Positions 12,681 through 57,927 of a DNA stretch of 64,000 nt are shown here, one piece after another. The notes below the pieces were generated by a model. That model was not told the origin of the DNA and ran no database searches. It was given only the letters and a program-made list of their open reading frames with translations. Every line of letters starts with the position of its first letter. The first letter of the stretch is position 1. The position numbers were made by a program, and so were the translations under genes. The stretch is from positions 33,162,810 through 33,226,809 of the forward strand of contig NC_088304.1 of the NCBI RefSeq assembly GCF_032854445.1, read 5' to 3'. Source of the DNA: Liolophura sinensis. Lineage: Eukaryota > Mollusca > Polyplacophora > Chitonida > Chitonidae.

Positions 12681-12807
12681 ATGTTGCGGTCTCTGTGGAG
12701 GAGAAAGGTCCAGTTGTTGTACGTCCTGGTATTGCTTGCCGGCGTGAAACCAGATGTGTTGGGCCAACAGGGTCGAAATCCGGGCGGCAATCAACGTACG
12801 GGAACAG
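12681..12807 (+). CDS. Gene A exon 1 of 3: signal peptide
   Basis: Encodes 42 residues starting MLRSLWRRKVQLLYVLVLLAG: a basic n-region, a hydrophobic core at about residues 10-22, and likely cleavage near VLG|QQ (residue 28), so the product is secretory. The mature N-terminus is Gly/Asn/Gln/Arg-rich. The exon ends at a perfect donor (acag|gtgagt) in phase 1. The split codon G|AT joins in frame to the exon at 22324, across a 9.5-kb intron packed with repeats. The same layout (short signal exon, phase-1 intron) recurs in genes B, C and D. Confidence 0.75.
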
Positions 12808-13682
12808 GTGAGTTTAGGTTACAAATCAGAAAGGCAAATCTAATCGAACACTACAAGGTTGAGTTATATTTAAAAACAATGTTTATCTTACCTACTTCTT
12901 TCAGTACGAGATTAGACTAATGTGAAGCCAGATGATGGGCATTGCCAGAAAATCGTAAAAAAACTAAATTGTGTTAAACTAACACAATTAGGGTTGAAGA
13001 GTTCATACAAATTTATATCCCCACATCCAGTGGACAACAAAGGATATCGGATTGCTTGATGAAGAAAGTCTCTGACGTTTAAATGTATAGCAAAGCTTTC
13101 ATGCAAATTCTAAAGTTAGATGGCTTTTGTGCATGACAGTGGAATGAATCCCACCTCAGTTTCGTTTCTTGCAGTTTTTATTGTTTAAAACTCCTGCGCA
13201 AGCAAGTCCGCCATAATTTCCTTCTGTTCTTGCATTTTTCTTTTATATTTCTTTAACATATTCAGGTGTACATGTTTACACGTTGGAACATGCGAAACTT
13301 ATTATTTCGTTATTGGTTTTTTGGAGTTATCCTGAGAAAACGCTAATCTATCCAATACATATCAATGGCGGTTTTAGCCTGTTATACACCATACAGCCAG
13401 AATCAAGCATAATTCCATATATGAGAATAATGCATACTCATGTGTAAAAGACGGCACCTTTAAAGTTCTAAATTACAATTTTGCGAAGAGGAATGTATAC
13501 ATTCCTTCTGCCCAATAATGGGAAGCAACTTTTCGGCATGTAATTTTTATAATATACTCTGTATTCATACAGACACATGTTATGCTTATGAAACCTATGT
13601 GAGCATTTGACAAATGACGGTTTCTAACTTGTTTTGGGAATAGGTCCTTCATCATCACTTGATCATGGGGTTCCTTTCTTCC

Positions 13683-13990
13683 ACCATAAAGCTAGCCACC
13701 GTTCTTGACTGCGGCGTAAAACGCCAAACAAATAAAATTCATCACCTGGGCAAAAACAAACCATTTAGTCAACGCTGTTTTTACTGATATGATCCAGTCT
13801 CTTGTCAATTTTCTGCAGTTATGGTTTTGTTCTAACTGTCTACATCCGAACAAATGTAGACTTGTCAATTTTCTGCAGTTATGGTTTTGTTCTAACTGTC
13901 TACATCCGAACAAATGTAGACTTGTCAATTTTCTGCAGTTATGGTTTTGTTCTAACTGTCTACATCCGAACAAATGTAGAGTCGTGTTGC
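13683..13990. repeat. SINE tail scrap and three perfect 60-bp repeats within an R2 copy
   Basis: 13683-13738 is a diverged SINE-I tail (+). The 60-bp unit at 13801-13860 is repeated without a mismatch at 13861-13920 and 13921-13980. The unit (cttgtcaattttctgcagtt then atggttttgttctaactgtc) is the reverse strand of the middle of repeat R2. A single diverged version occurs at 15484-15545. The three copies are identical, so the triplication is very recent or maintained by conversion. Confidence 0.93.
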
Positions 13991-14393
13991 GGGTCCAGAC
14001 TACTAACCAACGGACAAACGCCAGTGACGTGACACTTTAGATAGTCCTTGGCATACAACATCGATCTGTCCTTGTTTACACCACCGCTTTACATCATCTT
14101 CTCACATTATAAGCTTGTCAACTCTGTGTGTAGGCCTTCATTTAAGTCAGCCATCTGGTTTTATGTCGTGTCTAAATAAAGGTTTTATGTTGTAACTCCA
14201 ACTCGACAGACGGTAATACTGCATTAACCTTTACAGATTTGGGAATAAAAAACACAGAAATTTACTCGTGCGGTTGGTTGAAAGTTGTTAGAACATGTAC
14301 ATGGTGACTGCAACTCTGGTGACAAAATTACGACACCGCATTACCATGGAGATAATCACTGACATGTAGGAGATAAAACACTAGAGCCTAAAG

Positions 14394-14830
14394 CAGAGAA
14401 CTGACGACAGGGCGGTAGTGTGCAAATACTCTCACGTAGCACCATGAGTTCAGCAGAACTGTAGTTCAAAAAATGCATTGATGGTAGTTGTAATCTATTA
14501 CAAGTCACTGCTCAATGGTTATTCAAAATACTGATTCTTGAGTACGGCGTAAAACACCAATCAAAAAAAATAAATAAATAAAAAATAAAAATACTGTATT
14601 ATCGCCATAAATAACATACTGCAACACTAATACAATGCAAGTGGACCAGGACGTCGGAAATGCTTAATCCACGAGCAAAATCCTGGTTTATACTGCAATA
14701 AAATACTGCACTGACGACAGCGTGATAGCTGGCAAATGAGCGCACGTAACCGGTGAAATACAGCCTCTTGTCAGTCTACCTCAGTTAGGGTTTTATTCTA
14801 ACTGTTCATGTTTATGCTGAAAAAGTAGCT
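14394..14830 (-). repeat. R2 fragments and a SINE-I tail
   Basis: R2 in reverse orientation at 14394-14500 (agcaccatgagttcagcaga end) and 14705-14830 (ctcttgtcagtctacctcag then ttagggttttattctaactg). Between them, at about 14535-14592, lies a plus-strand SINE-I tail (gattcttgagtacggcgtaa) with a long A-rich end and no body. Confidence 0.7.
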
Positions 14831-14886
14831 ACGTATAGAACCGACGTAGGCCTGTGCTTTATGTTAGACAAAACCTGGGGATAAAT

Positions 14887-15310
14887 GGTAGGGACAAACG
14901 CTGGGGACAAACGCTAGGGACAAATATTGGGAACAAATGCTAGAATTGGGGACAAATGCTGGAGCTGGGTACAAATGCTAGAATTGGGGACAAATGCTGG
15001 AGCTGGATACAAATGCTGGAGCTGGGTGCAAATGCTGGAGATGGGTACAAATGCTGGAGCTGGGTGCAAATGCTGGAGTTGGGCAAAATGCTGGAGCTGG
15101 GGACAAATGCTGGGACTGGGGACAAATGCTGGAGCTGGGCAAAATGCTGGAGCTGGTGACAAATGCTGGAGCTGGATACAAATGCTGGAGCTGGGTGCAA
15201 ATGCTGGAGCTGGGCAAAATGCTGGGACTGGGGACAAATGCTGGGACTGGGGGCAAATGCTGGAGCTGGGGACAAATGCTGGAGCAGGGGACAAATGCTA
15301 GGAACAAATA
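14887..15310. repeat. 19-bp minisatellite, about 22 copies
   Basis: The unit is ctggagctgggtacaaatg, with variants gggcaaaatg and gggactgggg; a few units are 18 bp. Most frames on both strands stay open because the unit lacks stop triplets. The resulting Cys-Trp-Ser-Trp-rich or Gln-His-rich peptides are not taken as real proteins. Confidence 0.95.
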
Positions 15311-15348
15311 CAAGTAGTACAAGTGGAATGTTTTTGACAACAGCGTAA

Positions 15349-16140
15349 AATTTATTTATTTATTTATTTGAGCAGTGTTTTACGCACTACTCGTAACAAA
15401 ACAAAACACTCCAGAATATTTCAATTTTCGACGGGGTCAGCATTGTGGTGGGAGGCAGGTTACTGGCAGACCTCCACATTTCAACATTTGTACGGATGTA
15501 GACATAACAAAACCCTAACTGCAGAAAATTGACAAGAGACCGGATTTCATTGCAATACATGTGACTTTTTGTCAGATATATCGTTGTCACTGCTCTGGTT
15601 TAACTTTCTATTATTCCGAAATATATAGTGTAGTGTGGTGCAGCCAAAGTTCCTGCGGAGTACATGATTGACCATTGACAAGTCACTGACGAGCTTGTCC
15701 ACGTGTGGCGCACGGATATTGATGGGTAAATCTGGACTAGTGGCGTCTGGTAATTTGCACGTGTTATCACTGCAATTTTTAACTTAATTCTGCGAAAGCC
15801 ATGGTGTAAGGGGAAGTGTACTTTGCTACTTTTTATACATATAGATGTACAGTTGGAATAAAACCCTAACTGAGGTAAACTGACAAGATGTACAGCACAG
15901 AGAGCAAATATCGAACATCGCCGACAGCTGGAAAATTGTCTCATGTAAACGGTGTAAACAACATCTTGTCAGTTGATGCCTGAGTGTGATGCTTTGACAG
16001 GGCTAACTTGTCCATGTAAGTGCTTAGATAGTAGCAACTTAGACCCCCCCCCCCCGCCTCCCCCTCTAGCACAATGGCTTAAAGCAGTATTAGGTGAAAG
16101 TGATATTAATTGAAATTTATTAGACGCCACTGGTCTAGAA
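15349..16140. repeat. R2 copies in both orientations and a SINE tail scrap
   Basis: 15349-15400 is a diverged SINE tail (-). R2 parts are at 15484-15545 (+), 15733-15887 (+, from ctagtggcgtctgg through aaccctaactgaggtaaact), 15888-15990 (-, from gtacagcacagagagcaa) and 16050-16140 (-, ending ttagacgccactggtctag). The opposed halves form an imperfect inverted arrangement centred near 15888. Confidence 0.7.
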
Positions 16141-17197
16141 TTACTCAAAATGCTCAGTTGTTATCAATCTTTACGTACAATAATCTTAAAGCAATGAAGA
16201 GACGGCATGTAAACCTGCACCATCCATCAACTTGTGCACCATATCTTTTAGTATGGACAGACTGCGGATAAACCCGGTTTTATTGTTCATAATCCTGGTA
16301 ACGCCTTTTCAATGTCTTGCAACGGAAATGGGGGTAGTCAACCTCACAATTAACAAAAGCTTTCTCATTAAATTAATTCTTTCTGAAAATTAATTTTCTG
16401 CAATTCATGTGATGTTAATATAGAAAGGCCTGCTATATTGCTTTCCTGTCTAGCCTGTTAGGTTCCCACGAAACAAAGCCTGGACGTATTTTCTCCATTC
16501 GCATTATTTTCTACATCGTTTATTTCTTCTCTGTGGTTATTATCATTTGTTTTATTTCGATTATTGGCTCTTCTTAAAAATGATAATGACCTAACTTTAT
16601 CCACATTTATCTCACTATTTATATATACTTAACCAAATCTAATTTCATTCATTCGTTTAGAATTGCATTCATACAATTATTTTAGTTCGGAAACTAGTTT
16701 GTCAAGAAAACTCATCCTTAACATAATTCCTTAATTCTTAGTTTCTTGCGCTGTACAACACTTCTATCGCAAGATTTTGAGGTTGCGGGATCTCAGAGTT
16801 TCTGTTTCGCGGTTTTGCCTCTCTCCGATAAACCCTGGCCATGTGCCTGTATTAAAATAACAGTTTGAGGTTGTGTACATTTAGCTATCATTTCGTGTAT
16901 AGCTGACATCACGAAAGGCTGTATATCTATCATCGAGTGAGGCTGCATAACTATCATCGCGTCAGGAGATATAGGTATATGTATGTGTGTGGCATATCAG
17001 CATCACCTCGTTGAGTGTGTGGGGGGGGGGGGGGGGTATCAGCGTCGGGGTTCTTATGTCATTATGTTTGGAATGTGATGATAACACAACATTCTTAGTA
17101 AATCCAACGAGTGACGTGTGATAAATTATATCTTACTTCACTTTTGCTTATTGCACGGCGCCATGGCAGGTTGCTATTTTTAAAGCATTTAAAACAG
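16141..17197. other. Gene A intron 1, unassigned stretch
   Basis: No exon was recognised. It contains a short degenerate direct repeat around 16900-16970 (ggctgtatatctatcatcg type) and a G-run at 17019-17036. Confidence 0.4.
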
Positions 17198-17405
17198 ATG
17201 TTTCACTTATGCGATGGCAGCCAGCATTAGGGTGGGAGGATACCAGGCAAAGCCCAGGGGAAACCCACAACCATCCGCAGGTTGCTGGAAGACATTCCCA
17301 CTTACGGCCGCAGAGGAACAGATACGATTGTTAACTCTTATATGGGGGCAAACATCACACTCTCGTTGCTGCTCTGGTTTTACTGTCTATGTTGCTGTGT
17401 TCTTT
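17198..17405. mobile_element. SINE-I body fragment (-) and R2 end
   Basis: 17198-17320 is the reverse-strand SINE body (tttcacttatgcgatggcag, then gaaacccacaaccatccgca). 17355-17405 carries the R2 end sequence gctgctctggttttactgtc. Confidence 0.7.
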
Positions 17406-17413
17406 AATGTATA

Positions 17414-18345
17414 AATGAATGCGACCAAACATGTACGAATTACACATGACGGCAATACAGCTCATAGGATTAAATTGTGACGGCGATAAAAATAACATAG
17501 GACTAAGGAGTGACGGCGATACAACTAATATAAGACTAAAGTGTGACGGCGATACAACTAATATAGGACTAAAGGGTGACGGCGATACAACTAATATAGG
17601 ACTAAAGTGTGAGGGCGATAAAACTAACAGGATTGATGTGTGAGGGCGATACAACTAACAGGACTAAAGTGTGACAGCGATACAACTAATATAGGACTAA
17701 AGTGTGACGATGATACAACTAATAGGACTAAATTGTGACGGCGATACAACTAATGCTACTCAAGTGTGACGGCGATACAACTAATGCGACCAAAGTGTGA
17801 CGGTGATACAAATGATACATGTACGACTTAGACATGACGGCAATACAACTCATAGGATTAATTGTGACTGCGATAAAACTAACATAGGACTAAAGTGTGA
17901 CGGCGATACAACTAATATAGGAATAAAGTGTGACGGCGATACTACTAAAGTGTGAGGGCGATGCAACTCACAGGACTAAAGTGTGATGGCGATGCAGATG
18001 ATTGGACTAAAGTATGACGGCGATACAACTAATATGGATAAAGAGTGGCGGCGTTACAGCTAATACGTAGTATGACGGCGATACAGCTAATAAGACTAAG
18101 ATATGAAGAAGATGCAACTAATACGACTTCAATGGGACGGCGATACAGCCAATACGTTAAAGTGTGACGGCGATACAGCTAGTACGATAAAGTGTGACGG
18201 CGATACAGCTAGTAGGACTAACTTGTGACGGACATGAAACTAATACGACTTAAGTGTGACGGCGATCCAACTAATACGACTAAAGTGTGACGAAGATGCA
18301 ATTAACTGGACTAAACTGTGACGGCGATACAACTAATACGACCGA
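17414..18345. repeat. 33-bp minisatellite, about 28 degenerate copies
   Basis: The unit is near gtgacggcgatacaactaat followed by ataggactaaa, with loss or gain of the atag segment giving shorter units. The second half is more diverged than the first. Confidence 0.92.
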
Positions 18346-19232
18346 AGCGATGATGTCATTATTTTGTTGTCTTCAATTGATATGGTACAAGTATCGAGTA
18401 TTACACTGACGCTCTTGTTTCGGAACAAAATGACTTACCCAACCGCCCGTTTTTATGTTAAAATGTATTCATTTTGATGTCACTTTTTTGCTTGTTCCTA
18501 CATGAAAACCTAGATGTCATACAGACGTTTGGTTGATTTTTAGTGTGTAATGACATCCAAATGACAACCGTCTATCACAGACAGAGGTGTTTGTGGATGT
18601 TTTTTTTCCTTGCAAAGCGACAAGTGGCCCAGTTACATTTTTACATAACTGTTCACTTCATATGAGCTGACACTTGATGAGACTCTTGTCATCCCCTTCC
18701 TCTGTTCATGAGCAACGCGAGATGTCATTGTTTATTTTTACCTCTCAACTGGAACGCTAACAATGAACAGCTTTATGAGTTTTTCACATTTTAGTCCCCT
18801 TTTTTCGGAGGAAGGATTATCAATCAAATTAAGCAAACAACTGATGCTTTATTGTTTTATTCGGGTTCTCAAAATGTATTATGTCATATTTTGACAGCGG
18901 AGAAACGACTTGCGAAGAAATTCTTTATTCAGTTATTCGTCTATTATTTATGGACGTTCAGCTTAGTTAAGCCATATACGGACCGCTCTTCATCTTCAGC
19001 GTCATATAGTCTGTTTGTACATATTAAAGAGCCCATGGATTTAATTAACTTTCACCGGCTATCATAAATAACAATATTATATAATATGATTTCAAAAGCC
19101 ATTGTATGCATGAAAATTTATTCGTAAATGATGGATAAAAGGGGAGGAAATTTATCCCGAACTTCGCCGCGGCGTGATAGAAAATTTATGAATGCTTTTA
19201 CAATGTAAGTCTGGTTAACATGTTTTAATGTT
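18346..19232. other. Gene A intron 1, unassigned stretch
   Basis: No supported gene or repeat. One 71-codon open frame has no features. Confidence 0.4.
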
Positions 19233-20025
19233 GAATAATTAAAAAACAATCGTACCGGTATTTACCGTCAACAATCATACCGGTATTTACCGTCAACAAT
19301 CGTACTGGTATTTACCATCAACAGTCGTACCGGTATTTACCGCCATCAATCGTACCGGTAATAACCGTAATCAGTCGTACCGGCATTTACCGTCAACAAG
19401 CTTACCGGTATTTACCATCAACAAGCTTACTGGTATTTACCATCATCAATCGCACAGGTATTTACCGTCATCAATCGTACCGGTATTTACCATAAACAAT
19501 CATACCGGTATTTACCGTTAACAATCGTACCGGTATCTACCGTCATCAATTGTACCGGTATTTACCATCATCAGTCGCACAGGTATTTACCGTCATCAAT
19601 CGTACCGGTATTTACCATCAACAATCATACCGGTATTTACCGTTAACAGTCGTACCGGTATTTACCGTCATCGATCGTAACGGTACTCCAAATCATCAAT
19701 CGTACCGGTATTTACCGCCATCGATGGTTCCGGTATTTACCGTTACCAATCGTACCGGTATTCACTTTCAACAATCGCACCGGTATTCACCATCATCAAT
19801 CGTACCGGCATTTACCAACAATGGTCGTACAGGTATTTACCGTTACCAATCGTACCGGTATTCACTCTCAACAATCGCACCGGTATTCACCATCATCAAT
19901 CGTACCGGTATTTACCGTCATCGATCGTTCCGGTATTCCCCATCATCAATCGTACCGGTATTTACCGTCAACGGTCGTACAGGTATTTACCGTCAGCAAC
20001 CGTACCGGTATTTACTGTCAACACC
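19233..20025. repeat. 25-bp minisatellite with palindromic units, about 31 copies
   Basis: The unit is taccggtatttaccgtcatc plus aatcg. Each good copy holds the palindrome taccggta and an overlapping imperfect palindrome ggtatttacc. Variant copies change taccgg to cacagg or caccgg. A 172-codon frame runs through it with a 25-residue period, but the other frames are also largely open. Confidence 0.95.
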
Positions 20026-20089
20026 TAACCGCCACACACATTTTCAAAGGCTTTTATTCTTTATTTAGGATCTAGAATACCACAACTGT

Positions 20090-20500
20090 TATTCATTTGA
20101 TATATTTATTTGATTGGTGCGAGGACTCGCCTATATCGCTACCATTAGCTAGAATTTACATGAACATTTTAAATGAAACCCTAACTGAGGTAAATTGACA
20201 AAGAGGCCGTATTTCACTGGTTAACATTTGCCAAGTATCACATTGTCGTTGTACATTGCACTTGCACCCAGTGTACCGATACTTATTGAGGCTATTATAC
20301 GAATAACACGGCACCGTATGTCATGTCATGTGGAGAAAGTTCATCATTCTTTCCGTTGCGTGGACAATTCACATTACCAGTATAATAGATCACAATATAG
20401 AGAGTAGACCCAGAGTAGCAGCTTGTAGTTCGGAAATGGTCAAACCTACGGAACAGGTGAAATACGGCCTGTTCTCAGTATTCTGAATGTTTACGTAAAG
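20090..20500. repeat. SINE tail scrap and two R2 copies
   Basis: 20096-20150 is a SINE tail (-). R2 is at 20165-20265 (+, aaccctaactgaggtaaatt then ggccgtatttcac) and at 20386-20500 (-). Confidence 0.65.
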
Positions 20501-21385
20501 CAGCAAATTTTTAAATAGAAACCAGATGTTGTAAATATCTGGCATCGAAATATGTCAGGTGTTGTACTCTCTGCTCCAGTGCTTAATTTCCCTTTCAAAA
20601 TAAACATCGGATAGTGTTGGGTGTATATCCCTTTCCAGATGCAGGATCCTTCATTCAGAAATCTATCCACCCTGACACACCGCCAGACCACATAGCAAAT
20701 TATCTCCCTTTGCCCCTTCATCCTGCTTATCTTCACACAATTGGAGTGACAAAATAATTAAAGACGTACATCATAATAATGACAAGACAACTGGTTAGAT
20801 ATCATATTTGTTGTATTTTCTCACGTTCTTAAGTAAGTGTAACAGATAAAATTATGCATAATCTAATAAATTATAAGATTTATTATGCAGCGACGTATCT
20901 TCTTATATACCCAGTCCGGTAAACAGATATAAGATCTAACTTGATGATAACTTACTGTTATATCATTTATTTGATATATTCTCTTCACACAGAGCTGACG
21001 GATGTAGAGACAATGTAAATATAACAGATAAGTATCTCATTTAATAAATTTGAATTTAACCCTGTTTTCACTGTACAACCTTTGACAATACCCTGTGCTA
21101 TTGATGTGCTAAAACCTAAAAAGAAAACATGAAGACACACACACAATTAATGTCTCAATCTATTGACGTGAGTCAAAAGCTCGTTTACTTGAATATTTAA
21201 ATAACTCGCTCTCTTGTTTATTGTTAGTTCACAAAAATACAGTTCTGTTATTTTAACCTTGAGTCCATTTCCCACATTTTATTTGTAATGAACGACTTCA
21301 CATACTAAAGGCCTTCGCAATCAGAGTGTTGGGTATCTTTATACGTCGCAGTATATCCTTTCACCTTGGGAAATTGGATAGTCGA
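20501..21385. other. Gene A intron 1, unassigned stretch
   Basis: AT-rich, no exon or repeat supported. Confidence 0.4.
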
Positions 21386-21600
21386 CTCATTCGTTTAAAG
21401 TGTTATTTCCGCTTCAGATCCATCATGTCGTAGGTTCAAATCCAGCTCTCGTTAGATGAATCAGGGGTTTTGTCAGGTATCTGACGAGGGTATAGGTTGT
21501 TTTCCCCAAGCACTCTGGTTTCCCACGACCAATAAGCCTTACTGTTGTCGTGTAAATGAAAATGTGGTGCGACAGGTGTTAAACAGCAGTGGGATAGGAA
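21386..21600 (+). mobile_element. tRNA-like SINE relic (SINE-III type), tentative
   Basis: A B-box-like gtaggttcaaatccagctc at about 21431 is followed by a body with tttgtcaggtatctgacgag and a ggtgttaaacagcag end, comparable in order to the element at 24.9-25.1 kb. Diverged. Confidence 0.45.
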
Positions 21601-21703
21601 AGTCTCCTTTCACCAGAAGTTCTCACGATTTATGCCAATATTTGTTCCATAAAAAGTCACACTTAGTAGGTGCCGTTGCAACACAGCATTTTGAGTCTGT
21701 CTC

Positions 21704-21935
21704 GATCAGTGGCGTTTAATAAATCGCGCTTAACATCATTGCAATTGTTTTTAACTAATTCTGCTTAAACCATGTTGCTAGGGGTATGTGAAAAGTTGCT
21801 GTTGTTTTATCACTTACATGAACAGTTAGGACTCCAACTGAGGTAAACTGACAAGCGGCCGGATTTCACCGGTTACGTGTGGCCATTTGCCAACTGTCAC
21901 ACTGTTGTCGGTTTTATTCTACATGTTGAGTTATT
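21704..21935 (+). repeat. Dispersed repeat R2, nearly complete
   Basis: Runs from cagtggcgtttaataaatc, through ctaattctgcttaaaccatg, aactgaggtaaactgacaag and tttcaccggttacgtgtg, to cacactgttgtcgg. It lacks the far end (ctggttttactctc...gtacgtcttta). Confidence 0.75.
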
Positions 21936-22323
21936 TCACACAGATAACATAAAACACATGTACTTTTTTGAGGAGTATAAAGTGTTGTAGTCAAGAAGGG
22001 TTTGTTTATTTTGTCTGTATTCTTTGGGAGTATGAATAACTGCAAAATTCAGTAATGTAACACACACTCACAGGAACGGCACTTTGAAGACACCAGACAC
22101 CAAGTTTTCCTTGAACGTTGAGCGCCAATAAAGTACTATAGAAGAGAATATCTATAGTGCAACTGAAATTAACGCTGATAATCATGTCCCGAGTTTCAGT
22201 CTGGCCTGAGTCAGTATTTCCTCTGGTATAGATTTAATTTGGTGTCGGAAATGGTATCTACATATGCTTTCCTGGAAGATGACATCAGTTTGAAATTAAC
22301 TTATGAATTTGCATTTTCCGTAG

Positions 22324-23206
22324 ATGTCGACGCCATTCTGAACAAAGTCATGATGGATTTTCTACAGAAGCTGAATCAACCTACGGCAACCAACCTTACA
22401 CCGACGACGTTTGGCCGACGTATACTTCCCCCAGCGCCTGCCAGCGGACAATTCCTGCAGGACAACAGTGCTATAAACAGTGGCACCCATCGACTGAGAT
22501 TGAGTCAGGGGCAGACTGCTTTTTATCAAAACGTAAGTTCAACAGCGCGGCAAGCTTTGTTAGTAGCCAGCAAGCAGCCGTTAACTACAACAACAGCTAC
22601 AACAACAACGCAAGCGCTTAATTCTACGTATTATTTACCTAGTGGCGATGCAAAAAGTTTAAAAGTTACACCAGATCGTTCTGATACAGGTGAAACATAC
22701 AGGAGTACGTTTAGCGGTATCGCGACATCCCACCCATTGAGCGAAAACAGAACAATGGGTCGCAATACCACTTCGGCCTCCACGGCAAAAGTAGCCACAA
22801 CATCGACAAATGTAGCAACAACATCCGCATTTGCAGCAACAGCAACAAGAGTCGCAACAACATCATGGAAGGAAGCAGTAGCAACCACAAGGGAAGCCTC
22901 ACTAAAAAAGTTGTCAAATTCAACGACAGATGACTGGTCAGTAAACACGATAACTGATGATACAACAACGGCTTCTTCAAAAACTGTGTCAACAGATTTT
23001 AGGAACGTTCCATCCAGGAACGGATTCACAGTTCCTCAGAAGACAGTTTCTGTCTCTCCTAAACCGACCCGTCTTCCAGTATTGACTTTATCTCATAGTA
23101 CAACCCATACAACGGCAACAACGACAACAACTTTGCCCAGAACTGTTAGTCAGCCCGACCCAGTCGTGTCAAAAGGAGCATCAGAGCCAAAGAATGGGTC
23201 TTGGAG
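22324..23206 (+). CDS. Gene A exon 2 of 3: Thr/Ser-rich mucin-like region
   Basis: Acceptor tttgcattttccgtag; enters in phase 1, completing an Asp codon. Residues 43-61 (DVDAILNKVMMDFLQKLNQ) form a clear amphipathic helix. A basic pair in the context FGRRILPP at about 72-79 could be a convertase site. The rest, to residue 337, is rich in Thr, Ser and Ala with runs of Thr (TTTTATTTT) and several N-x-S/T sites, the profile of a heavily O-glycosylated mucin-like stalk. The exon ends ttggag|gtaaga in phase 2. If unspliced, the next codon is TAA inside the donor, so intron retention would give a protein ending at GSWR. No known family was recognised. An in-frame upstream extension to 22239 is rejected because the acceptor and frame fit so well. 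Confidence 0.78.
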
Positions 23207-23324
23207 GTAAGATAGTGATATGGAACAGAAAACTAAGAACAGTCTCATTTGGAGCGATCTGCTCAGATCATGCACTTGAACCACTGGAAGATATACTATG
23301 GTTGTGGGAGTCTTATTGGTATAG

Positions 23325-27714: not shown

Positions 27715-28823
27715 TTACGCAGAGTTAAGAAAGTATCTGTTCCACAACATGCGTCTCCAGGGTGACATATTTTGAAAATTAGCTCCCATGACCCACGAGG
27801 ACGGCCTGTTGCCGGTATTGGGCGCTGCGGTGAGAGCTGGTGTCGGTTTTGGCGCCAGGTTTGTAATTTGCAGAGGAGAGGGTCCGGTAGCCTGTTTCAC
27901 CGCGTTAGTGGCGGATTGCCGGTTAATGGTAGGTGGGGTGGCTGTGAGGGGTGGTGCCGTGGCTGGCGAGGTGACTATGTACGGAGGAGCTTGCTGGAAC
28001 ACGGGGCCCTGGCTGTCCATAACAGGCTGTGTCGGGATGGGTGTGGTTGGGGTTCTCAGTGGGCTGCTGAGCGCATTTTGCATGGTGGGCCACGGGGTAG
28101 CCTGTTCCACGGGGGCTGATGTGCTCGGCGCAGGCTGCAGTAACGTCTCCATTGTTGGCGGAGGTATCGTGTTCCTTGGTACAGGTGTGGCTACTGCCAT
28201 AGGGTATTCAGGGGGGTCGGTAATGTCCGGTGGGTCGGTGGGTTCCACAAGAATCATCGGCAGCAAAGAACCCCCGGGACCTTGCCTAGGCATGACATTA
28301 CCAGAACTTGCCGGAGGTACTTCTGGTGGGTCTGTGGGATCCGGGGGCTCAGGTACTTCCGGGGCTTCCGTGATTGGAACTCCGTTCACCATATCCGGGG
28401 GGTCTTGCGGATCAACCAGTGGAACGGCTGCAACCATGTTATTCGTTGGTGCACTGCCCAGTAGAGGGCCACGATTATTGAAACTTGCTACCCTCTGTCT
28501 AATTCTTTGATTGAGCAACGGGCCTCTGACACTGATCCCTGGCATGTTGTAAGCTCTCACAGGCGGGTTCGCAGGCGGACGAACATTAGATCTATACGGG
28601 GCCGACCACTGGCTGTTTAATTGCCGCTGTTGATTGTTTCGTGAGTTTGGTTGAAGAGGACTGCCACTGTTGGTATTAGTGCTTCTTAGAGGGCCATTGA
28701 TCAACAACGGTTCTTGATTGGTAGACAACGGCCCTTGATTGATCAACAGTGGGTTTTGGTTGGTCGAAGTCGTAGGGCGACTGGCCATCCGGCGAGCATA
28801 CCAAGGAAACTGCCTCAGGAACC
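27715..28823 (-). CDS. Gene B exon 2 of 2: Pro/Thr/Gln/Asn-rich secreted protein
   Basis: The acceptor tgtttcctctttacag gives a phase-1 join, completing T|GG (Trp). Residues 39-50 (WFLRQFPWYARR) are aromatic and basic and end in a possible dibasic site. Next come imperfect repeats of PLLINQGPLSTN type (about 60-85), an Arg/Asn stretch, an acidic proline segment with repeated TDPPE/TDPPD motifs (about 175-245), then Pro/Thr/Ala-rich sequence. It ends in a compact aromatic/basic C-terminus (MSPWRRMLWNRYFLNSA) at residue 407. No cysteine-rich or enzymatic domain is seen. Composition suggests an extracellular matrix or biomineral-associated scaffold protein, which is inference. It is structurally paired with gene C. 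The stop codon is TAA. Confidence 0.82.
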
Positions 28824-28889
28824 CTGTAAAGAGGAAACAGTAGATTAGGGGATTTATGCTACAGATATTTGGTGATTTATCCCGTGGAA

Positions 28890-29092
28890 TTTGGCTTAAG
28901 CCATGGTGCTAGGGGGCGTGTAAATTGTTGCTATTCATGCATTTACATAAACAGTTAAAATAAAACCATAGACTGAGGTAAATTGGCAAGAGGGTTATTT
29001 CACCGGTTACGTGTGACCATTTGTCAGCTATCATTCTGTTGTCGCTGCTCTGGCTTTATTCTCTGTGCGGTACGTCTTTAATTATATTCTTT
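28890..29092 (+). repeat. Dispersed repeat R2, reference copy
   Basis: Reads ggcttaagccatggtgctag, a T-rich gap, aaccatagactgaggtaaat, atttcaccggttacgtgtga, ctgttgtcgctgctctggct, then gtacgtctttaattatatt. It lies in gene B's intron, antisense to the gene. Confidence 0.75.
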
Positions 29093-31645: not shown

Positions 31646-31760
31646 ATGAGCGTATTTGTTGCGTCTGTCGTTTGTGTCTTGGCGCTGTATGCGTAAGAAC
31701 CGTCCCACATAGCCACAGGCCTAAGACGCCGAGTAGTACGTAATGGCGACGCTCAACCAT
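31646..31760 (-). CDS. Gene B exon 1 of 2: signal peptide and processing site
   Basis: Encodes 38 residues. A hydrophobic core at 8-22 (VLLGVLGLWLCGTVL) indicates secretion. It is followed by A26-P27-R28-H29-K30-R31-Q32, a furin-type site whose cleavage would expose an N-terminal Gln. The exon ends ctcat|gtaaga in phase 1 and joins in frame to 28823 across a 2.8-kb intron. The site sits at exactly the same residue numbers in gene C, strong evidence that the two are paralogues. Confidence 0.82.
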
Positions 31761-37814: not shown

Positions 37815-39110
37815 CGCGTTGCTAGTCTGTATAGTGTCTTGTCTGACATCAACGTTGAGTTTCTGATGTACGTGTTGCTTAACTGTAAAGTCGAGTTTAT
37901 GGTGTATATGTTGTTTGACAGTAGCCTCGAGTTTATGGTGTACATGTTGTTTGAAAGTAACCTCGAGTTTATGGTGTACGTGTCGTTTGAAAGTAAACTC
38001 GAGTTTATGGTGTACATGTTGTTTGACAGTAGCCTCGAGTTTATGGTGTACATGTTGTTTGAAAGTAACTTCGAGTTTATGGTGTACGTGTCGTTTGAAA
38101 GTAAACTCGAGTTTATGGTGTACATGTTCTTTGACAGTAGCCTCGAGTTTATGGTGTACATGTTGTTTGAAAGTAACCTCAAGTTTATGGTGCACGTGTT
38201 GTTTGAAACTAACGTCGAGTTTATGGTGTACGTGTCGTTTGAAAGTAGCCTCGAATTTATGGTGTACGTGTCGTTTGAAAGTAAACTCGAGTTTATGGTG
38301 TACATGTTGTTTGACAGTAGCCTCGAGTTTATGGTGTACGTGTTGTTTGAAAGTAACTTCGAGTTTATGGTACACGTGTTGTTTGAAAGTAACTTCGAGT
38401 TTATGGTGTACGTGTTATTTGAGAGTAACCTCGAGTATATGGTGTAGGTGTTGTTTGAAAGTAGCCTCGAGTTTATGGTGTACGTGTTGTTTGAAAGTGA
38501 CCTCGAGTTTATGGTGTACGTGTTGTTTGATAGTAGCCTGGGATTTAAGGTGTGCATGTTGTTTGAAAGTAACTTCGAGTTTATGGTGCACGTGTTGTTT
38601 GAGAGTAAGCTCGAGTTTACGGTGTACATGTTTGACAGTACCCTCGAGTTTATGATGTGTATGTTGTTTGAAAGTAACCTTGAGTGTATGGTGTACGTGT
38701 TGTTTGAAATTAATGTCGAGTTTATGCTGTACGTGTTGTTTGACAGTAACCTTGAGTTCATGGTGTTCGTTGTTTGAAAGTAAGCTCGAGTTTATGGTGT
38801 ACATGTTGTTTGAAAGTAACCTCCATTTTATGGTGTGCATGTTGTCTGAAAGTAACCTTGAGTGTATGGTGTACATGTTTTTTGAAAGTAACTTCGAGTT
38901 TATAGTGTACATGTTGTTTGACACTAACCTCGAGTTTATGGTGTACATGTTGTTTGACAGTAACCTCGAGTTTATGGTGTACATGTTGTTTGACAGTAAC
39001 CTCGAGTTTATAGTGTACATGTTGTTTGACAGTAGCCTCGAGTTTATGGTGTACATGTTGTTTGACAGTAACCTCGAGTTTATGGTGTACATGTTGTTTA
39101 AAAGAAAAGC
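37815..39110. repeat. 36-bp minisatellite, about 36 copies, open in several frames
   Basis: The unit is gtttatggtgtacatgttgt followed by ttgaaagtaacctcga; most copies contain ctcgag. Because 36 is a multiple of three and the unit lacks stops in several frames, long frames run on both strands (up to 246 codons plus, 349 codons minus). In the left third, variants (gacagtagcc, gaaagtaacc, gaaagtaaac) recur every three units, a 108-bp higher-order repeat. It lies between genes B and C. I treat it as non-coding. Confidence 0.95.
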
Positions 39111-40109: not shown

Positions 40110-41338
40110 TCAGAATGCCGCTTGTGTCCAAGCAAAGCTGTTTCCGGAGGTCCACGCGGGCGGCCACTGCTGACCCGAGGCCTGTGGTGACGCACCGGGC
40201 GCTGGTTGCCCATAAGGAGCCATCATGTTGCCCATCATCGCACCGGCGCCCTCTGCAGGTTCAACCTCTTGTACTTGAGGTGGTTCTACTTCCAAGCCAG
40301 GGGTGAGTGCCCTAATGGGCGGCTGACCACCTCTGGGAAATGCCTGCATTGCCGCCTGGTGCATTGGCATTGCCGCTTGTCCGCCCATCTGCCGCTGGAG
40401 TCCGCGAACAGAACCCATAAGTGGCGCCTGGAGCATTGCTGTCTCCATCTCTGCCCCAAATCCCACTTGTCCTTGGATAGCATTGGGTAAACTCACCATG
40501 TGAAGGCCGGACATGGTGAACGCGCCGGCCTGAGTCTCAACGGCTTCGGCCGCTTCAACTTCTCCCCCAGGCATTAGTGACTGGAAACCTCTCCCGGTGT
40601 TTGCGTTCTGGACGCCGGAACTAACTCCCGGAATCATTGGTGTGTACACCCACGGAGCGACCTGTGGGGCGTTATTCACTGAGAGATTGGGCAGGACAGG
40701 CTGCATTGGACCGGGCTGTGCGTGCGGGTTATTACCTGGCAGCACTGCTGTGCTGGCCGGAGCAGCTTCAACCGGCTCAGTTTCCGGAGCCTGGGCGATT
40801 GTCCCAGCCAATCGTGGACTGTTGTCTGTTATCATTTGTTGTTCAGTACCAGCATTGCCGGACGATGAAGCCGAAGCTTTTGAGCCTATGGTATTGCTAT
40901 CTAACCGAGCTTGTTGTCCTACATTCCTTTGTGGACTGACCTGTAGAGGGGCAGCATTGTTATTCACCTGACCTTGTGAAGGAGCTTGTTGCAAAGCAGT
41001 AAATCGTGGATCTGTCGGCTGAGATAAAGGTACATAATTACCAGGCGCTTGTGGCAAAGCGTAATTGTTGGCCGAAGCTTCTGGGAGGGTGTTGCTGACA
41101 CCTGGACCTCCGACTACAACATTAATGGTCTTGGGTGGCGAAGCTTGTTTATTGGGGCTGCTATTAGCAGGAGCTTGCTGAATGGCATTGTTGTTGTTGT
41201 TGGTGTTAAGGGCAGATGCCTGGGGCTGTTTGCCGCCTGTAGCTTGACCCGGGGCTTGCTGAGGCGCAATCACACCTTCGGCCATTTCTGGGGCTTCCAC
41301 CTCAGGGGCTGCTGTCGGCTCAATCTCCTGGTTAAGCA
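40110..41338 (-). CDS. Gene C exon 2 of 2: Ala/Gln/Pro-rich secreted protein
   Basis: The acceptor cattgttcttctgtccacag gives a phase-1 join, completing T|TG (Leu41). The start is acidic (EIEPTAAPEVEAPEMAEG, about 45-62). Repeated QAP motifs embedded in Asn/Gln/Ser-rich sequence follow (QQAPGQA, LPQAPGN, LQQAPSQ, IAQAPET), then a Pro/Val segment with PMQPVLPNLS, a Met/Gln/Gly-rich part around 335-375, an acidic EVEPPQVQEVEPAE segment and a Trp-containing C-terminus (SFAWTQAAF) at residue 449. No known domain is present. The P/Q-rich, acid-patterned composition recalls extracellular scaffold proteins of mineralised or cuticular tissues, but composition alone proves nothing. It is GC-rich compared with its surroundings, as expected for a real exon. 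Confidence 0.83.
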
Positions 41339-41399
41339 CTGTGGACAGAAGAACAATGACGGAAATTAGTTTTTCTGAGATTACAGTTATGACCTTCCA

Positions 41400-41480
41400 T
41401 AATTTATGTGTTTGTTTGGTTAGGTCATTGTTGGATTGGTTAAGTCATTGTAGGATTGGTTAAGTCTTTGTTGGACTGGG
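41400..41480. repeat. 20-bp direct repeats, about three copies
   Basis: ggttaagtcattgtaggatt type units at 41418-41478, just inside intron 1 of gene C next to the splice acceptor. Confidence 0.7.
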
Positions 41481-41534: not shown

Positions 41535-41795
41535 CCGCACGTCCTGGTGGTTAGTATGCTAGTGCAGAGCAATAACCCAGGAGCCTGTCACTAATGGGAT
41601 CGCTGTGAGTCCGTCCAACTCGTGCTGGCTTCCTCTCCGGCCGTACGTGGGAAGGTCTGCCAGCAACCTACAGATGGTCGTGGGTTTCCCAAGGGCTCAG
41701 CCGGGTTTTCTCCCACCATAATGCTGGCCACCGTCGTATGAGTGAAATGCTCTTGAGTAAAACACCACTCAATAAATAAATAAATAAATAAATAC
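41535..41795 (+). mobile_element. SINE-I, near full length
   Basis: The A-box region is degraded (gtggttagtatgctagtgca) and the B box altered (gtgagtccgtccaactcg). The body is intact, and the tail lacks part of the gtacggcgt motif. It lies in gene C's intron, antisense to the gene. Confidence 0.85.
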
Positions 41796-46484: not shown

Positions 46485-46605
46485 ATAGCGACAGCTGATT
46501 AGGTTGCGCCTGTCGCCGACTTCTTGGTGCTGCAAACGTTAGAGAGACCAGGAACAAGGCGAGGACAATCCTCCAGAGCTGCACCCTGCACACTTGTGGG
46601 CCCAT
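46485..46605 (-). CDS. Gene C exon 1 of 2: signal peptide and processing site
   Basis: Encodes 40 residues. The start at 46605 is chosen because it has an excellent translation context (gccatgg); an in-frame ATG nine codons upstream has a poor one. The hydrophobic core is residues 13-24 (IVLALFLVSLTF), then A26-P27-R28-S29-R30-R31-Q32, a furin-type site aligned residue for residue with gene B. The exon ends cgctat|gtaagt in phase 1 and joins in frame to 41338 over a 5.1-kb intron. Confidence 0.85.
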
Positions 46606-48165: not shown

Positions 48166-48308
48166 TCAGCCAAAGGTCTGCAGCAACCTGCGGATGGTCG
48201 TAGGTTTCCCCCCGGCTCTGCCCGGTTTCCACCCACCATAATGCTGGCCGCCGTCGTATAAGTGAAATATTCTTGAGTGCGGCGTAAAACACCAATCAAA
48301 TAAATAAA
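48110..48308 (+). mobile_element. SINE-I body and tail joined to a different tRNA-like head
   Basis: gaggtcgctggttcgaaacc (B-box-like) precedes the standard SINE-I body from gcagcaacctgcggatggtc and a good tail. The same head sequence recurs alone at 48474-48510 (gaggtcgctggttcgtaatc). Confidence 0.75.
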
Positions 48309-48374
48309 TCATTTGTGATCATCAGAGAGGTAATGCATGTTCGCTGTAAAGTCTACCGGTCAACTACCTTCTAT

Positions 48375-50225: not shown

Positions 50226-50252
50226 ATTATGTATATAAATTCGCTTATCTTG

Positions 50253-51003
50253 GGATTAGACGCCGTATAAACACAGCGCAGTTCTAAAATCGCGGGGTTA
50301 GACTACGTATAAACATGGCGCAATTCTAATATCGTGGAGTTAGAGCCGTATAAACATTGCGCAGTTCTCATATCGCTGGGTTAGAGGCCGTATAAGCATG
50401 GCGCAGTTCTAATATCGCGGGGCCAGAGGCCTAATAAAAATGGCTCAATTCTAATATCGCGGAGTTAGAGCCGTATAAACATTGCGCAGTTCTGATATCG
50501 CGGGGTTAGAGGCCGTATAAACATTGCGCAGTTCTGATATCGCGGGGTTAGAGGCCGTATAAACATGGCGCAGTTCTCCTATCGCGGGGTTAGAGCCGTA
50601 TAAACATGGTGTAGTTCTAATATCGCGGGTTAGAGGCCCTATAAACATTGCGCAGTTCTGATATCGCGGAGTTAGAGGCCGTATAAACATTGCGCAGTTC
50701 TGATATCGCGGGGTTAGAGACCGTATAAACATGGCGCAGTTCTCCTACCGCGGGGTTAGAGCCGTATAAACATGGTGCAGTTCTAATATCGCGGGTTAGA
50801 GGCCGTATAAACATGGTGCAGTTCTAATATCGCGGGTTAGTGGCCCTATAAACATTGCGCAGTTCTGATATCGCGGGGTTAGAGGCCGTATAAGCATGGC
50901 ACAGTTCTAATATCGCGGGGTTAGAGGCCATATAAACATTGCGCAGTTCTAATATCGCGGGGTTAGAGGCCATATAAACATGGCGCAGTTCTAATATCGC
51001 CGC
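50253..51003. repeat. 42-bp minisatellite, about 18 copies
   Basis: The unit is gcgcagttctaatatcgcgg followed by ggttagaggccgtataaacatg, with 40-41-bp versions. Variants at two positions (gcgcag/gtgcag; taatat/tgatat/tcctat) recur in blocks: the order at 50480-50630 is repeated at 50650-50800, suggesting duplication of a block of about four units. Confidence 0.95.
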
Positions 51004-52895: not shown

Positions 52896-52922
52896 AATAG
52901 AAACATTTGGAAATATCTCCTA

Positions 52923-52928
52923 TTTATT
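52923..52928 (-). terminator. Polyadenylation signal of gene D
   Basis: Reverse-strand AATAAA 112 nt beyond the gene D stop codon. Confidence 0.5.
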
Positions 52929-53039
52929 TAGAGTTCACAATCTTTACGAAGATGTTACTTCAAATATAGCAGGCGTTATGTAAGACAGTCCCATGTGAAA
53001 ACTGGCGAAATCTCTTAGACGGCTCAGTCTTCATAATTA

Positions 53040-53103
53040 TCATATTTCCGATAACGCAGACGTCAGAATCATTAGCACGATACCCACCACGTTGAACGGT
53101 GTC
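53040..53103 (-). CDS. Gene D exon 3 of 3: hydrophobic C-terminal tail
   Basis: The acceptor is tttgttttcattatag on the reverse strand. The phase-2 join gives TT|G (Leu) and then TPFNVVGIVLMILTSALSEI before TGA. The hydrophobic part (VVGIVLMILTSAL) lies at the very end, after the small residues Ser-Arg-Gly in the previous exon, which fits a GPI-anchor signal or a minimal membrane anchor. Size (64 nt), phase and character match gene A exon 3. The identification rests on this match and on the splice sites; a transcript would confirm it. Confidence 0.62.
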
Positions 53104-54270: not shown

Positions 54271-54474
54271 AGACACGACTTAGTGGAATAAAGACACGAC
54301 TTAGTGGAATAAAGACACGACTTAGTGGAATAAAGACCCGACTTAGTGGAATAAAGACACGACTTAGTGGAATAAAGACACGACTTAGTGGAATAAAGAC
54401 CCGACTTAGTGGAATAAAGACACGACTTAGTGGAATAAAGGCACGACTTAGTGGAATAAAGACAGGACTTAAGG
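54271..54474. repeat. 21-bp minisatellite, about 9.7 copies
   Basis: The unit is agacacgacttagtggaata + a; only acacga/acccga/gcacga changes are seen. It lies in intron 2 of gene D. Confidence 0.95.
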
Positions 54475-55374
54475 TCTGCTTCCACCAGAGCGGTTGCTTT
54501 TCCCGCCGCGGCTTGAGCAGCGTTTAAAACATGGTGAAGTGTGCCCACCACATGCGATTCTGACCGGAAATCACAGCGCGAGAAAAGCAAATTTCTGCTT
54601 CAAAAATCGACATGGAAACTCATAGAATTCTAATTCGCCTTATCATGTAGCATTGGATATTTTCAACTTCCAAAATTATTGTCTCTTGTAGGTCCAATAA
54701 ATAATGTATATGTACGCCGACTCAATACACGACAATTTCTACCAATCAATCAAACCAAAGACGCAACGGGAAACGTAGAGAAATCACCGAAGGAGTGACT
54801 GTACGCGAAAAACGCTGCGATTATTTGCAGTGCGATTTCCGCTCCGATTTAAGTGGATACGGTTGTACTTATGATGTAACATTGGTGGATAGTTTATAGG
54901 AAACTGCGAAGCTCCAGGCAGCCGTTTACCTTTTCCATCTTACCTTTTATTTTTAATACCATAACGAATTTCCTGTCACGCCGTCGTTACGAAAGAGGGA
55001 TGATTTCAGTTTTGACATAGTAAATCATCTTTACTTGAACCGGAATATACCCAAAAATTCCGCCCAAGGCGTGTATATGTGTAAGTGTCTAAATGTTACG
55101 AGTGCAGTTCTTTTTTGAACTATATATTGACGGAGATTTCAGAATCTCTGGCACTCGGCTTCATTCTTGTCTCTAATTCCAGTTATATAACGCGATGTGA
55201 GGGGATGTATATCCACCGTGTTGAATTAGATTACCGCATTGGATATATGAACAGTTACAATGAAAGCGTAACTAAAATCCATATATTGATTAACGACGTA
55301 TGAACTAGCATGACACATACCGCATGATTTGGAATTGATTTAATTCGCTTACCCTAACCATAACATTCCTGGCG
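54475..55374. other. Gene D intron 2, unassigned
   Basis: No supported exon or repeat. Confidence 0.4.
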
Positions 55375-55545
55375 TCTTCTTGAAAACAGTTGATTGCTTC
55401 TCCTTACCTGAATCCGTCATAATTTCTTATCTTACACACTTTCTTAATTTTTATGGTGTGTGTTGAACATAACCTTGGGAATTGGCTTTACGATTATTGA
55501 CCCGGAACGAGCAATATGGTCAATGGCTGGTACACACTTTCGACG
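55375..55545 (+). repeat. Dispersed repeat R3
   Basis: ttgattgcttctccttacct, then tttatggtgtgtgttgaaca and gggaattggctttacgatta. Confidence 0.62.
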
Positions 55546-55739
55546 CTTATATAGCGGATTTTACTTTTCATTTTTTTAAAAATCTGTTTATTAAAGCTTT
55601 TTTAATGATGTATTATTTAGTGTGGTGAGTGGCGAAGTATATTTCAAGCAGCGTAAGGGAACGTAATTACAAGTGAACAGTTCAACTGTAATGCGTGCTC
55701 TGAATAACACGCGAACGTTACAGCTTAGATTTTACTTAC

Positions 55740-57339
55740 AAAGTTGTTCCCCTTGACACGCTCTTCTCCGTTCTCTCACCGCGGCGAAAATCTGACGTGC
55801 TGCTGCCAGATGATGTCGCATCGACCATAGATGTAATCGTTGACTCTTCGGACGTCAACATGGCAGAGCTGATCATCGTGGACTGAGGATCATTCACCAG
55901 CTTATCTAATATACTGCTGATAACACTTTCCTGAAGCGCAGCCTCTGATGTTGTAGTTCTTGCTGTTGTTGTTGTTGCCTTTGTTTTTTGCACAATGCCT
56001 GATGCAGTCGATGAAGGAGATGCTTGGAAGAGATTGCCCAATATGTTTAGCACTTGATTCTGGCTAAGTGGAGGTTTCTTTGTGGGCTGATTAGTCACTG
56101 TAATAGCAGCTGCAAAAGTAGTTTTTCGGCTTTCCCTTGTAGGCCTACTCGAAGAACTGCCTTCTGTCGTTATAAACGTTGACTCTGGCACCACGCGTGT
56201 AAATGTCGTAGATGATACATACTTGGATGATTGATTTGATGAAGGCAGTGGTGTCGTGACTGCTTTCTTAAGTAAGACATTGACAATTCCACCCACAATA
56301 ACTTTAACATAACTCTCTTTCTTTGTAACAGGGGCATCGCTTACAAATGTTGAATCTGGTACTTTGCGCGTAAGCGGTAATGGTGTCACATAGGCGGCTG
56401 TTTCAGATGTCAGTGGCGATGGCGATGTGTCCGTAGTCTTATGTAAGACTTTGATAATTCCATCAACGATGTCTCTGACGTAATTTTCCTTCTTTGTTAC
56501 CGCGGCATCGGTTAAAGACGATATTTCCGGTGCCACTGTTGTTGTTGTTAATGTAGACTGATTTGAAGAGGGCCTGGTTCCATTTTGATAAAGTAAACCT
56601 TTAAGAATACTTTGCAAATCTGTTTTCACAAGGACGGGTTTGACAGTTGTTGTTGCTGTTGTGGGGATAGTTGTAGTCTCTAGAGAAGTGAAAGACTTTC
56701 TCAACAGTTGCAAAATGACGTTAAAACCTGTCAGATTCAAATTTGAGCTCGCATCATGCAATACGTTTGGCCTTTCCGGATTAGCTAGAACTGGTGATTC
56801 ACTTGTGCTCTCTTGCATGGGCAGTGTTCGAGGGAAATTCATGCTAGTAAAGACTTCTTCTTGTGTCTGCTGGGTTAAAGCTGAATCAGGAGATAACGCT
56901 GTAGAATTACCATTTGCCGTTGCAGGAAGGGGCGTAACTCTGGCCGTCACATTAGCGCTATTTCTTTCTTTGTCCACCTTGTTGTTCTCAGTTATTCCGC
57001 TAGGCGAGAATTCTGTGGTTTTTGGAAAAGATGTAACAGTATTTTCCATAGAAGTTCTTGCTGGCGACGGTGTTTTGCCCAAAGCATCCCCAATATTTGT
57101 TCTTGCATTTGTTGCTGATATTGTATCTTCCAAAGACCCACTCCCAACTTCTTTTGTTACTGGGTGAGTAATATTGCCATTTTTTTGCCTTAAGGGGCCA
57201 TTGGTCTGAAAAAACGATACCAGCGTGTTGTTCTTGAAAGACTGGGATACGACTGTATCAGGATCGGGAGGTATGGAAGTCGTGACATCAACTTGATTAA
57301 CCAACCTTGCCAATGCTTGAGATAAACCGTCAAGCCCAT
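55740..57339 (-). CDS. Gene D exon 2 of 3: helix-plus-mucin repeat region
   Basis: The acceptor ttgattctttgttaacag gives a phase-1 join, completing A|AT (Asn36). The exon encodes residues 36-568 and the split codon of 569. Short amphipathic helices, typically I/L-L-x-x-L patterns, recur at about 36-53 (GLDGLSQALARLV), 239-250, 276-287, 321-335, 378-394, 462-473 and 504-518 (SVISSILDKLV). They are separated by Thr/Ser/Pro-rich linkers with N-x-S/T sites. Residues about 315-370 and 372-427 are a direct duplication (VTKKENYV and VTKKESYV versions). There are no cysteines in this exon. It ends acttt|gtaagt in phase 2, and reading on gives TTG TAA within the donor. No known family was recognised; a secreted or cell-surface mucin-like protein is the best description. 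Confidence 0.82.
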
Positions 57340-57574
57340 CTGTTAACAAAGAATCAAAAAATACAGTTTGGGATTTTGTTTGTTTCATTCTGTCTGTTTT
57401 CTGGGCGTAGTTATACTTGCAAAACGTGTATGTGTTCTTACCACAGATCTCTGACTGACAAGTTTTGTTAGCCTATCAAAAAAAGTTGAATTTCCAAGAA
57501 ATATTAACATTTTGACGAAATTTGTTTTATGAATCAAAATTAAAACGTTTTATTAAATTATTTGGACCGAAATT

Positions 57575-57615
57575 GTCTTGAGTACAGCGTGAAAGAACAA
57601 TGAAATAAATAAAAA
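57575..57615 (+). mobile_element. SINE tail relic
   Basis: cttgagtacagcgtgaaaga and aaat units in intron 1 of gene D; no body. Confidence 0.55.
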
Positions 57616-57821
57616 TATTGAGTGATTTCGGACGGAAACCAGTTTTTAAACCTGAGGCAGGTTGTTCGAAAGTGTGGAAACGTTAAACAAGCTCAAATCT
57701 TAATACCAAAATTGCTCGATTGCAACAAATAATGAGATTTTAGACAGAAGGTAATACAGAGCTTAATTGTTTACCCAATTAAGTTAAACCCTAACTTTTG
57801 TAACATATAGACTATACGTAC

Positions 57822-57927
57822 TTATGGGTAGTTGGAGTGTGTTCGTATCATTTTGTGGCAAGACAGGATGGTAAGAGAAGACGAGTAGAATCGCAGATAT
57901 CGCCTCCCACTTCAAAGCTTGTGACAT
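57822..57927 (-). CDS. Gene D exon 1 of 3: signal peptide
   Basis: Encodes 35 residues starting MSQALKWEAISAILLVFSYH. The hydrophobic core (AISAILLVFSY) is short, and cleavage is likely near LP|QN (residue 24-25). The exon ends cccataa|gtacgt in phase 1 and joins in frame to 57339 over a 482-bp intron. A pyrimidine-rich tract ending ttttttacaag lies just upstream of the ATG on the reverse strand, so a further 5' non-coding exon is possible. Paired with gene A by structure. Confidence 0.68.

Follow-up and report, generated by a model that had tools for sequence, protein, structure and literature searches.

What do a series of long, compositionally biased open reading frames (ORFs) without recognizable domains encode in a chiton? 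Little is known of the surface-coat and matrix genes of chitons, animals that make shell plates, girdle scales and magnetite teeth. We analyzed a stretch of 64,000 nucleotides from Liolophura sinensis (assembly GCF_032854445.1, contig NC_088304.1, positions 33,162,810 to 33,226,809; hereafter the window) together with 100 kb on each side, i.e., 264 kb or, counting both strands, 528 kb of strand. A previous sequence-only reading had described four unnamed secreted low-complexity genes in the window, A to D, each with a signal-peptide exon joined to a long biased exon. We propose, with a probability of about 0.62, that the cluster encodes glycosylphosphatidylinositol (GPI)-anchored, mucin-like surface proteins (A, D, E and F) together with two furin-processed, secreted disordered proteins (B and C). 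The four genes already described are indeed present, and the limits then given, 12681 and 57927, correspond to the start codons of A and D, but the ORF listing of the 100-kb flanks revealed two more genes of the same style, E and F, right of the window. The cluster thus comprises six genes over about 72 kb (12681-84314 in window coordinates) and extends about 20 kb beyond the right end of the window, with gene A on the plus strand and genes B to F on the minus strand. Among the listed flank ORFs with less than 30% tandem repeat, we saw by eye no further ORF of at least 130 aa of this style.

Coding status and composition of the long exons

Reading the six long exons in the coding frame gives two stops, which are where B and C truly end, compared with 149 and 135 when the two alternative frames of that strand are read; this shows that the long ORFs of A to D are real coding exons, as had been claimed. 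The coding frame also holds no cysteine in 3007 residues, versus 73 and 123 in the alternative frames. A Pfam scan of the six long ORFs yielded no family reaching the cut-off, in line with the earlier statement that no domain can be named. We disregarded a Cas9_a match to gene A (E 0.05, below cut-off) and a solved-structure match to exon 2 of D, the sole exon searched in this way (E 0.42). When exon 2 of A, B, C, D or F was searched against the genome, each matched only itself at E ≤ 1 among the best candidates scored, suggesting that the long exons are not transposon-like; the single match obtained with the long exon of E (E 0.825) was disregarded as insignificant.

Threonine, serine and proline together make up 35-39% of exon 2 in A, D, E and F, a share exceeded by many classic mucins, and these exons carry 6 to 12 N-x-S/T motifs each. 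Within the first 22 residues of exon 2, genes A, E and F display a proline-free 13-residue window with seven or eight hydrophobic residues (shuffle p of 0.0032, 0.0208 and 0.0058, respectively), while no such window is found at the start of exon 2 in B and C. Recurrent hydrophobic helices, considered as a family signature, were rejected, since none of the six proteins is enriched over shuffles and A falls under the shuffle mean.

Signal-peptide-like first exons

Each long ORF of A to D is preceded by a signal-peptide-like exon ending in a phase-1 donor and has a usable phase-1 acceptor (scores of 7.4 for B, 5.1 for C, 4.7 for D and a weak 2.4 for A), so that this part of the sequence-only reading holds, with the acceptor of A and the donor of D being weak. 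The signal peptides are putative and were called by a heuristic that combines hydrophobicity with a cleavage motif; A, D, E and F pass it, D with a weak donor. Requiring a donor score of at least 3.5 and a hydrophobicity of at least 2.7 leaves 10 unmasked phase-1 sites in the 264 kb, both strands included, and five of them are the first exons of A, B, C, E and F. At loose thresholds, 103 phase-1 candidates with a cleavage motif appear in the 528 kb of strand. At the settings used, exon 1 of gene A is the sole unmasked site within 9000-22300. Secreted proteins in general show a surplus of phase-1 introns close to the signal peptide, as stated in PMC1626468, and the shared phase is therefore weak evidence of kinship.

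A candidate third exon with a hydrophobic tail in A, D, E and F

In the previous reading, A and D finished with the long exon. The last codons read AGG TAA GAT, TTG TAA GTA, AAG TAA GTC and AGG TAA ACT in the ORFs of A, D, E and F, respectively, such that in all four the apparent stop is the TAA of a phase-2 splice donor (GTAAGA, GTAAGT, GTAAGT and GTAAAC); the ORF ends of B and C, unlike these, are true stops. Downstream of each of the four donors, a phase-2 acceptor leads into an ORF of 20-25 residues with a hydrophobic end, reading VELRHDLWGVLVCVPVLGLYLL in A, TPFNVVGIVLMILTSALSEI in D, SAAAGRGSQLHCGILLFSVFLLLWR in E and CTCNWTTRAYLIAVMSAILAMVLHT in F. Ranked by acceptor score alone among unmasked candidates, these tail exons top the list in A, D and E and take third place in F. 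The donor at the stop and the candidate exon 3 speak against A and D ending with the long exon, and suggest that the long exons of all four genes are probably not terminal and continue into a third exon.

As a control, we collected the ORFs of 12-70 residues that follow an acceptor scoring at least 5 in all phases and on both strands of the 264 kb, which gave 260. Exactly four of these, the tails of A, D, E and F, reach a hydrophobicity of at least 2.7, a cut that was picked after seeing the four tails, and the computed joint probability of 0 for the tail exons reflects an empty background only. Other settings gave a graded picture: nine ORFs pass with an acceptor of at least 4.5 and a hydrophobicity of at least 2.5, including the four tails; an acceptor of at least 6 leaves just two tails of the quartet; and with the loosest cut (acceptor at least 3, ORF of 10-110 residues) 19 pass, four from the quartet. 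By arithmetic, the 15 others correspond to a background of about 0.0095 per kb, phase and strand, i.e., about 0.31 tails expected in the four segments concerned (33.1 kb), compared with four seen, one per segment.

A GPI-attachment signal consists of small residues, a short spacer and about 15 hydrophobic residues, after which the protein ends. The tails of A, D, E and F contain a hydrophobic stretch of about 15 residues, with only a few more residues before the stop, so that all four proteins would carry a hydrophobic C-terminal signal reaching the stop if exon 3 is used. Read in this way, by layout, the GPI-signal-like tails imply that the four proteins would be displayed on cells. The earlier proposal of secreted proteins would stand as regards the signal-peptide-like exons, but the products of four of the six genes seem to be tied to the membrane and not to be freely secreted.

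A translated-fragment homology search of the downstream exons was swamped by an interspersed repeat, and the best pair remaining after masking (F 75733 and E 58864) was rejected, as it had no exon-like context by eye. The repeat occurs in many copies on both strands, e.g., at 41548-41795 and 48172-48316, with a recurring reading such as FIYLIGVLRRTQEYFTYTTAASIMVGGN.

Kinship within the cluster

Alignments were scored against plain shuffles, which ignore local bias and so make the z values generous. Exon 1 of B aligns with exon 1 of C (VLGLWLCGTVLTHTAPRHKRQTQ with VLALFLVSLTFAAPRSRRQAQ) at z 7.35, none of 1000 shuffles scoring as high, while the remaining 14 exon 1 pairs stay at z 2.5 or below. 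Both exons contain R-x-[KR]-R, a furin-type site, followed by glutamine. Neither exon 2 (z 1.07) nor the C-terminal 40 residues (z 0.82) of B and C align significantly, though P..W..G..F occurs near both ends. In a genome search with exon 1 of C, the sole exon 1 searched, the second match (E 2.64) was disregarded. These comparisons indicate that B and C arose by duplication, at least as far as exon 1 is concerned, the remainder having presumably diverged or been replaced, which bears out their proposed pairing.

The proposed pair of A and D, on the other hand, dissolves into a quartet, since E and F share the layout. These four genes are adjacent and lack cysteine in the long exon, which is entered in phase 1, left in phase 2 and followed by a tail exon; in exon 2, E and F align at z 2.96 (0.005 of 200 shuffles) and A and D at z 2.1, but a cross-group comparison, that of the C-termini of A and B, also reaches z 2.77. 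From exon layout, phases and adjacency, with weak sequence support, a common origin of the quartet is likely, and one of all six genes is possible. Duplication with divergence of the large exons, as suggested in the sequence-only reading, would describe B and C; sequence similarity in the quartet is at most weak.

Weighing of alternative explanations

Several observations, in addition to the late choice of the tail cut, count against anchored products in the quartet. The splice and signal scores come from generic matrices. Exon 1 of D, with a donor of 0.8, fails the cut of 3.5, and the acceptor of A exon 2 is weak. In gene F, two other phase-2 acceptors outscore the chosen one, and a rival acceptor at 75821 gives 23 moderately hydrophobic residues (1.91). 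Past the exon 3 stop of gene E, the first 800 nt are free of AATAAA and ATTAAA, and the nearest such signal lies at 962. The corresponding hydrophobic window at the beginning of D exon 2 contains only five hydrophobic residues (p 0.23, not significant), and similarity within the quartet is weak, with a cross-group pair, exon 2 of B and F, also reaching z 2.26.

All six products could instead be soluble, low-complexity secreted proteins, belonging to the matrix of shell, cuticle or mucus, whose coding sequence finishes with the long exon, the third exons being due to chance. Translation could stop at the TAA of the donor, and low-complexity secreted proteins are typical of the molluscan mantle, according to portions of PMC4897951. 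AATAAA or ATTAAA is also found inside intron 2, at 133 (D), 177 (E), 461 (A) and 321 nt (F), at roughly the chance rate of 1.26 per 600 nt; with seven such signals within 600 nt of the intron start, summed over the four genes, versus about five expected, we rejected them as support for a soluble isoform. That four of four stops coincide with phase-2 donors, and that each gene has a hydrophobic-tail exon in matching phase, far over background, renders this explanation rather unlikely. The short last exons might also be transmembrane ends, or lead on to more exons, given that hydrophobic ends alone do not distinguish a GPI signal from a membrane span; yet the tails reach the stop almost directly and about 15 hydrophobic residues are short for a span, which makes such ends distinctly improbable. 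It is more doubtful still that the long exons are parts of unrelated larger genes, paired with signal exons by chance. The abundance of signal-like candidates at loose thresholds and the weak donor of D would fit such pairing, but under stricter thresholds half of the sites belong to five of the six genes, the first exons of B and C are strongly alike, and the tail-exon layout recurs four times, so that we consider it highly unlikely.

Proposed model for the cluster

The favored explanation, GPI-anchored proteins beside furin-processed ones, starts from what is observed, namely open frames, candidate exon ends and phases, tails, absence of cysteine and the kinship of B and C in exon 1; from these we infer splicing, anchoring, glycosylation, furin cleavage, tissue and the shared ancestry of the quartet. 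Its members A, D, E and F would be three-exon genes encoding a signal peptide, a large cysteine-free Thr/Ser/Pro-rich exon and a short hydrophobic-tail exon. Their chains would enter the secretory pathway, where the tail would be swapped for a GPI anchor and the Thr/Ser-rich region O-glycosylated, forming an extended brush at the cell surface. Contacts with neighbors or matrix could be made, in A, E and F, by the hydrophobic segment that opens exon 2 close to the free end. B and C would be secreted proteins encoded by two exons each; a furin-like protease would cleave them at R-x-[KR]-R and release Pro-rich (B) or Ala/Pro/Gln-rich (C) chains that begin with glutamine. Together, the six products may form an epithelial or gamete coat, a cuticle or a mineralizing matrix. 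Such a surface or matrix role of the cluster is plausible. A further step would be a full surface-coat kit in one locus, with GPI-tethered brushes, furin-released partners and retention of intron 2 as a switch from the anchored to the soluble form: as the donor GTAA doubles as a stop, a retained intron 2 would give a soluble form of the same gene. We put this forward as a long shot.

Features of the locus and its surroundings

Table 1. Candidate exons and ORFs of the six genes, in window coordinates
Feature	Coordinates	Strand	Remarks
Gene A long ORF	22182-23210	+	ORF list
Gene A candidate exon 1, signal-peptide-like, ends in phase 1	12681..12807	+	donor CAG/gtgagt, score 8.2
Gene A candidate exon 2, Cys-free and rich in Thr/Ser, entered in phase 1 and left in phase 2	22324..23206	+	acceptor score 2.4
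Gene A candidate exon 3, hydrophobic C-terminal tail (GPI-signal-like), stop TAA	25142..25211	+	AATAAA 192 nt past stop
Gene B long ORF	27715-28908	-	ORF list
Gene B candidate exon 1, signal-peptide-like, RHKR/Q site, ends in phase 1	31646..31760	-	
Gene B candidate exon 2, Pro-rich, no Cys, true stop	27715..28823	-	AATAAA or ATTAAA 176 nt past stop
Gene C long ORF	40110-41444	-	ORF list
Gene C candidate exon 1, signal-peptide-like, RSRR/Q site, ends in phase 1	46485..46605	-	alternative in-frame ATG 46623
Gene C candidate exon 2, Ala/Pro/Gln-rich, no Cys, true stop	40110..41338	-	AATAAA or ATTAAA 86 nt past stop
Gene D long ORF	55736-57472	-	ORF list
Gene D candidate exon 1, signal-peptide-like, ends in phase 1	57822..57927	-	weak donor, score 0.8
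Gene D candidate exon 2, Cys-free and rich in Thr/Ser, entered in phase 1 and left in phase 2	55740..57339	-	donor gtaagt
Gene D candidate exon 3, hydrophobic C-terminal tail (GPI-signal-like), stop TGA	53040..53103	-	AATAAA or ATTAAA 111 nt past stop
Gene E signal exon	74442-74340	-	beyond right end of window
Gene E long exon	73276-70795	-	beyond right end of window
Gene F signal exon	84314-84221	-	beyond right end of window
Gene F long exon	83044-81301	-	beyond right end of window

Two further convincing phase-1 signal-peptide-like exons lie in the left flank (-40490 to -40700, minus strand) and in the right flank (119456-119534, plus strand), and further secreted genes may therefore be located near the cluster. 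The window is rich in repeats (43 Tandem Repeats Finder rows), with long tandem arrays at 61-1202, 3368-4068, 17447-18342, 19245-20023, 37857-39104 and 50252-51000, some of which have several frames open through periodicity alone. An ORF at 60813-61232 on the minus strand gives a sub-threshold match to the DDE_3 transposase (E 0.0037, 17.6 bits versus a cut-off of 28.6), and we take it to resemble a Tc1/mariner remnant. In the right flank, a virus-like element with several ORFs of overlapping orientation spans approximately 109987-113748; one ORF matches the Pox_A32 packaging ATPase above cut-off (E 2.9e-7, 30.6 bits), and the two others scanned have no Pfam match. A 1591-aa ORF at 132267-137039 (plus strand) appears retrotransposon polyprotein-like by eye.

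The chiton assembly reported in PMC11068029, originally named L. japonica and renamed L. sinensis in a correction to that paper, comprises 609.5 Mb (609,495,693 in the table) in 632 scaffolds, including 13 chromosome-length pseudomolecules. Tissues with RNA-seq data given in the relevant sections of that paper are digestive gland, foot, gill, gonad and heart; mantle is not among them.

Comparison with known systems

The kind of protein proposed here is already known, and among the open-license papers listed by literature searches none reported such a cluster in chitons or mollusks. GPI-anchored mucin-like glycoproteins are a general kind with a signal peptide, a Thr/Ser/Pro-rich region and a hydrophobic tail without a cytoplasmic part, features that A, D, E and F would share; the four differ in having no Pfam relative above cut-off, and their anchoring and glycosylation are predicted. 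As a compact cluster of anchored and secreted types with readable phases, similar ends and unalignable middles, the locus provides definite candidates, and the combination of layout, phase and tail exon offers a route to such genes where sequence searches yield nothing.

Closer to mollusks, mantle secretomes consist in part of lineage-restricted, repetitive low-complexity and rapidly evolving proteins, as summarized in portions of PMC4897951, which resemble the cluster products in being lineage-specific, of low complexity and equipped with a signal peptide but no domain, and differ from them in that four of the six genes look anchored. Mucin-like genes expressed in the shell field of the snail Crepidula, as well as mucoperlin, both treated in parts of PMC11401363, are alike by composition, being mucin-like and molluscan. 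By analogy with these secretomes and shell-field genes, a shell or girdle role of the cluster is possible, and one in gametes, epidermis or gut is equally possible. A parallel from chitons is RTMP1 of the teeth, described in passages of PMC6351634 as Gly/Ser-rich with WF-rich and His-rich regions: like the proteins studied here, it has a signal sequence and is a biased, disordered protein without known relatives, and it appears to differ by composition, glycine left aside, B being Pro-rich, C Ala/Pro/Gln-rich and A, D, E and F Thr/Ser-rich.

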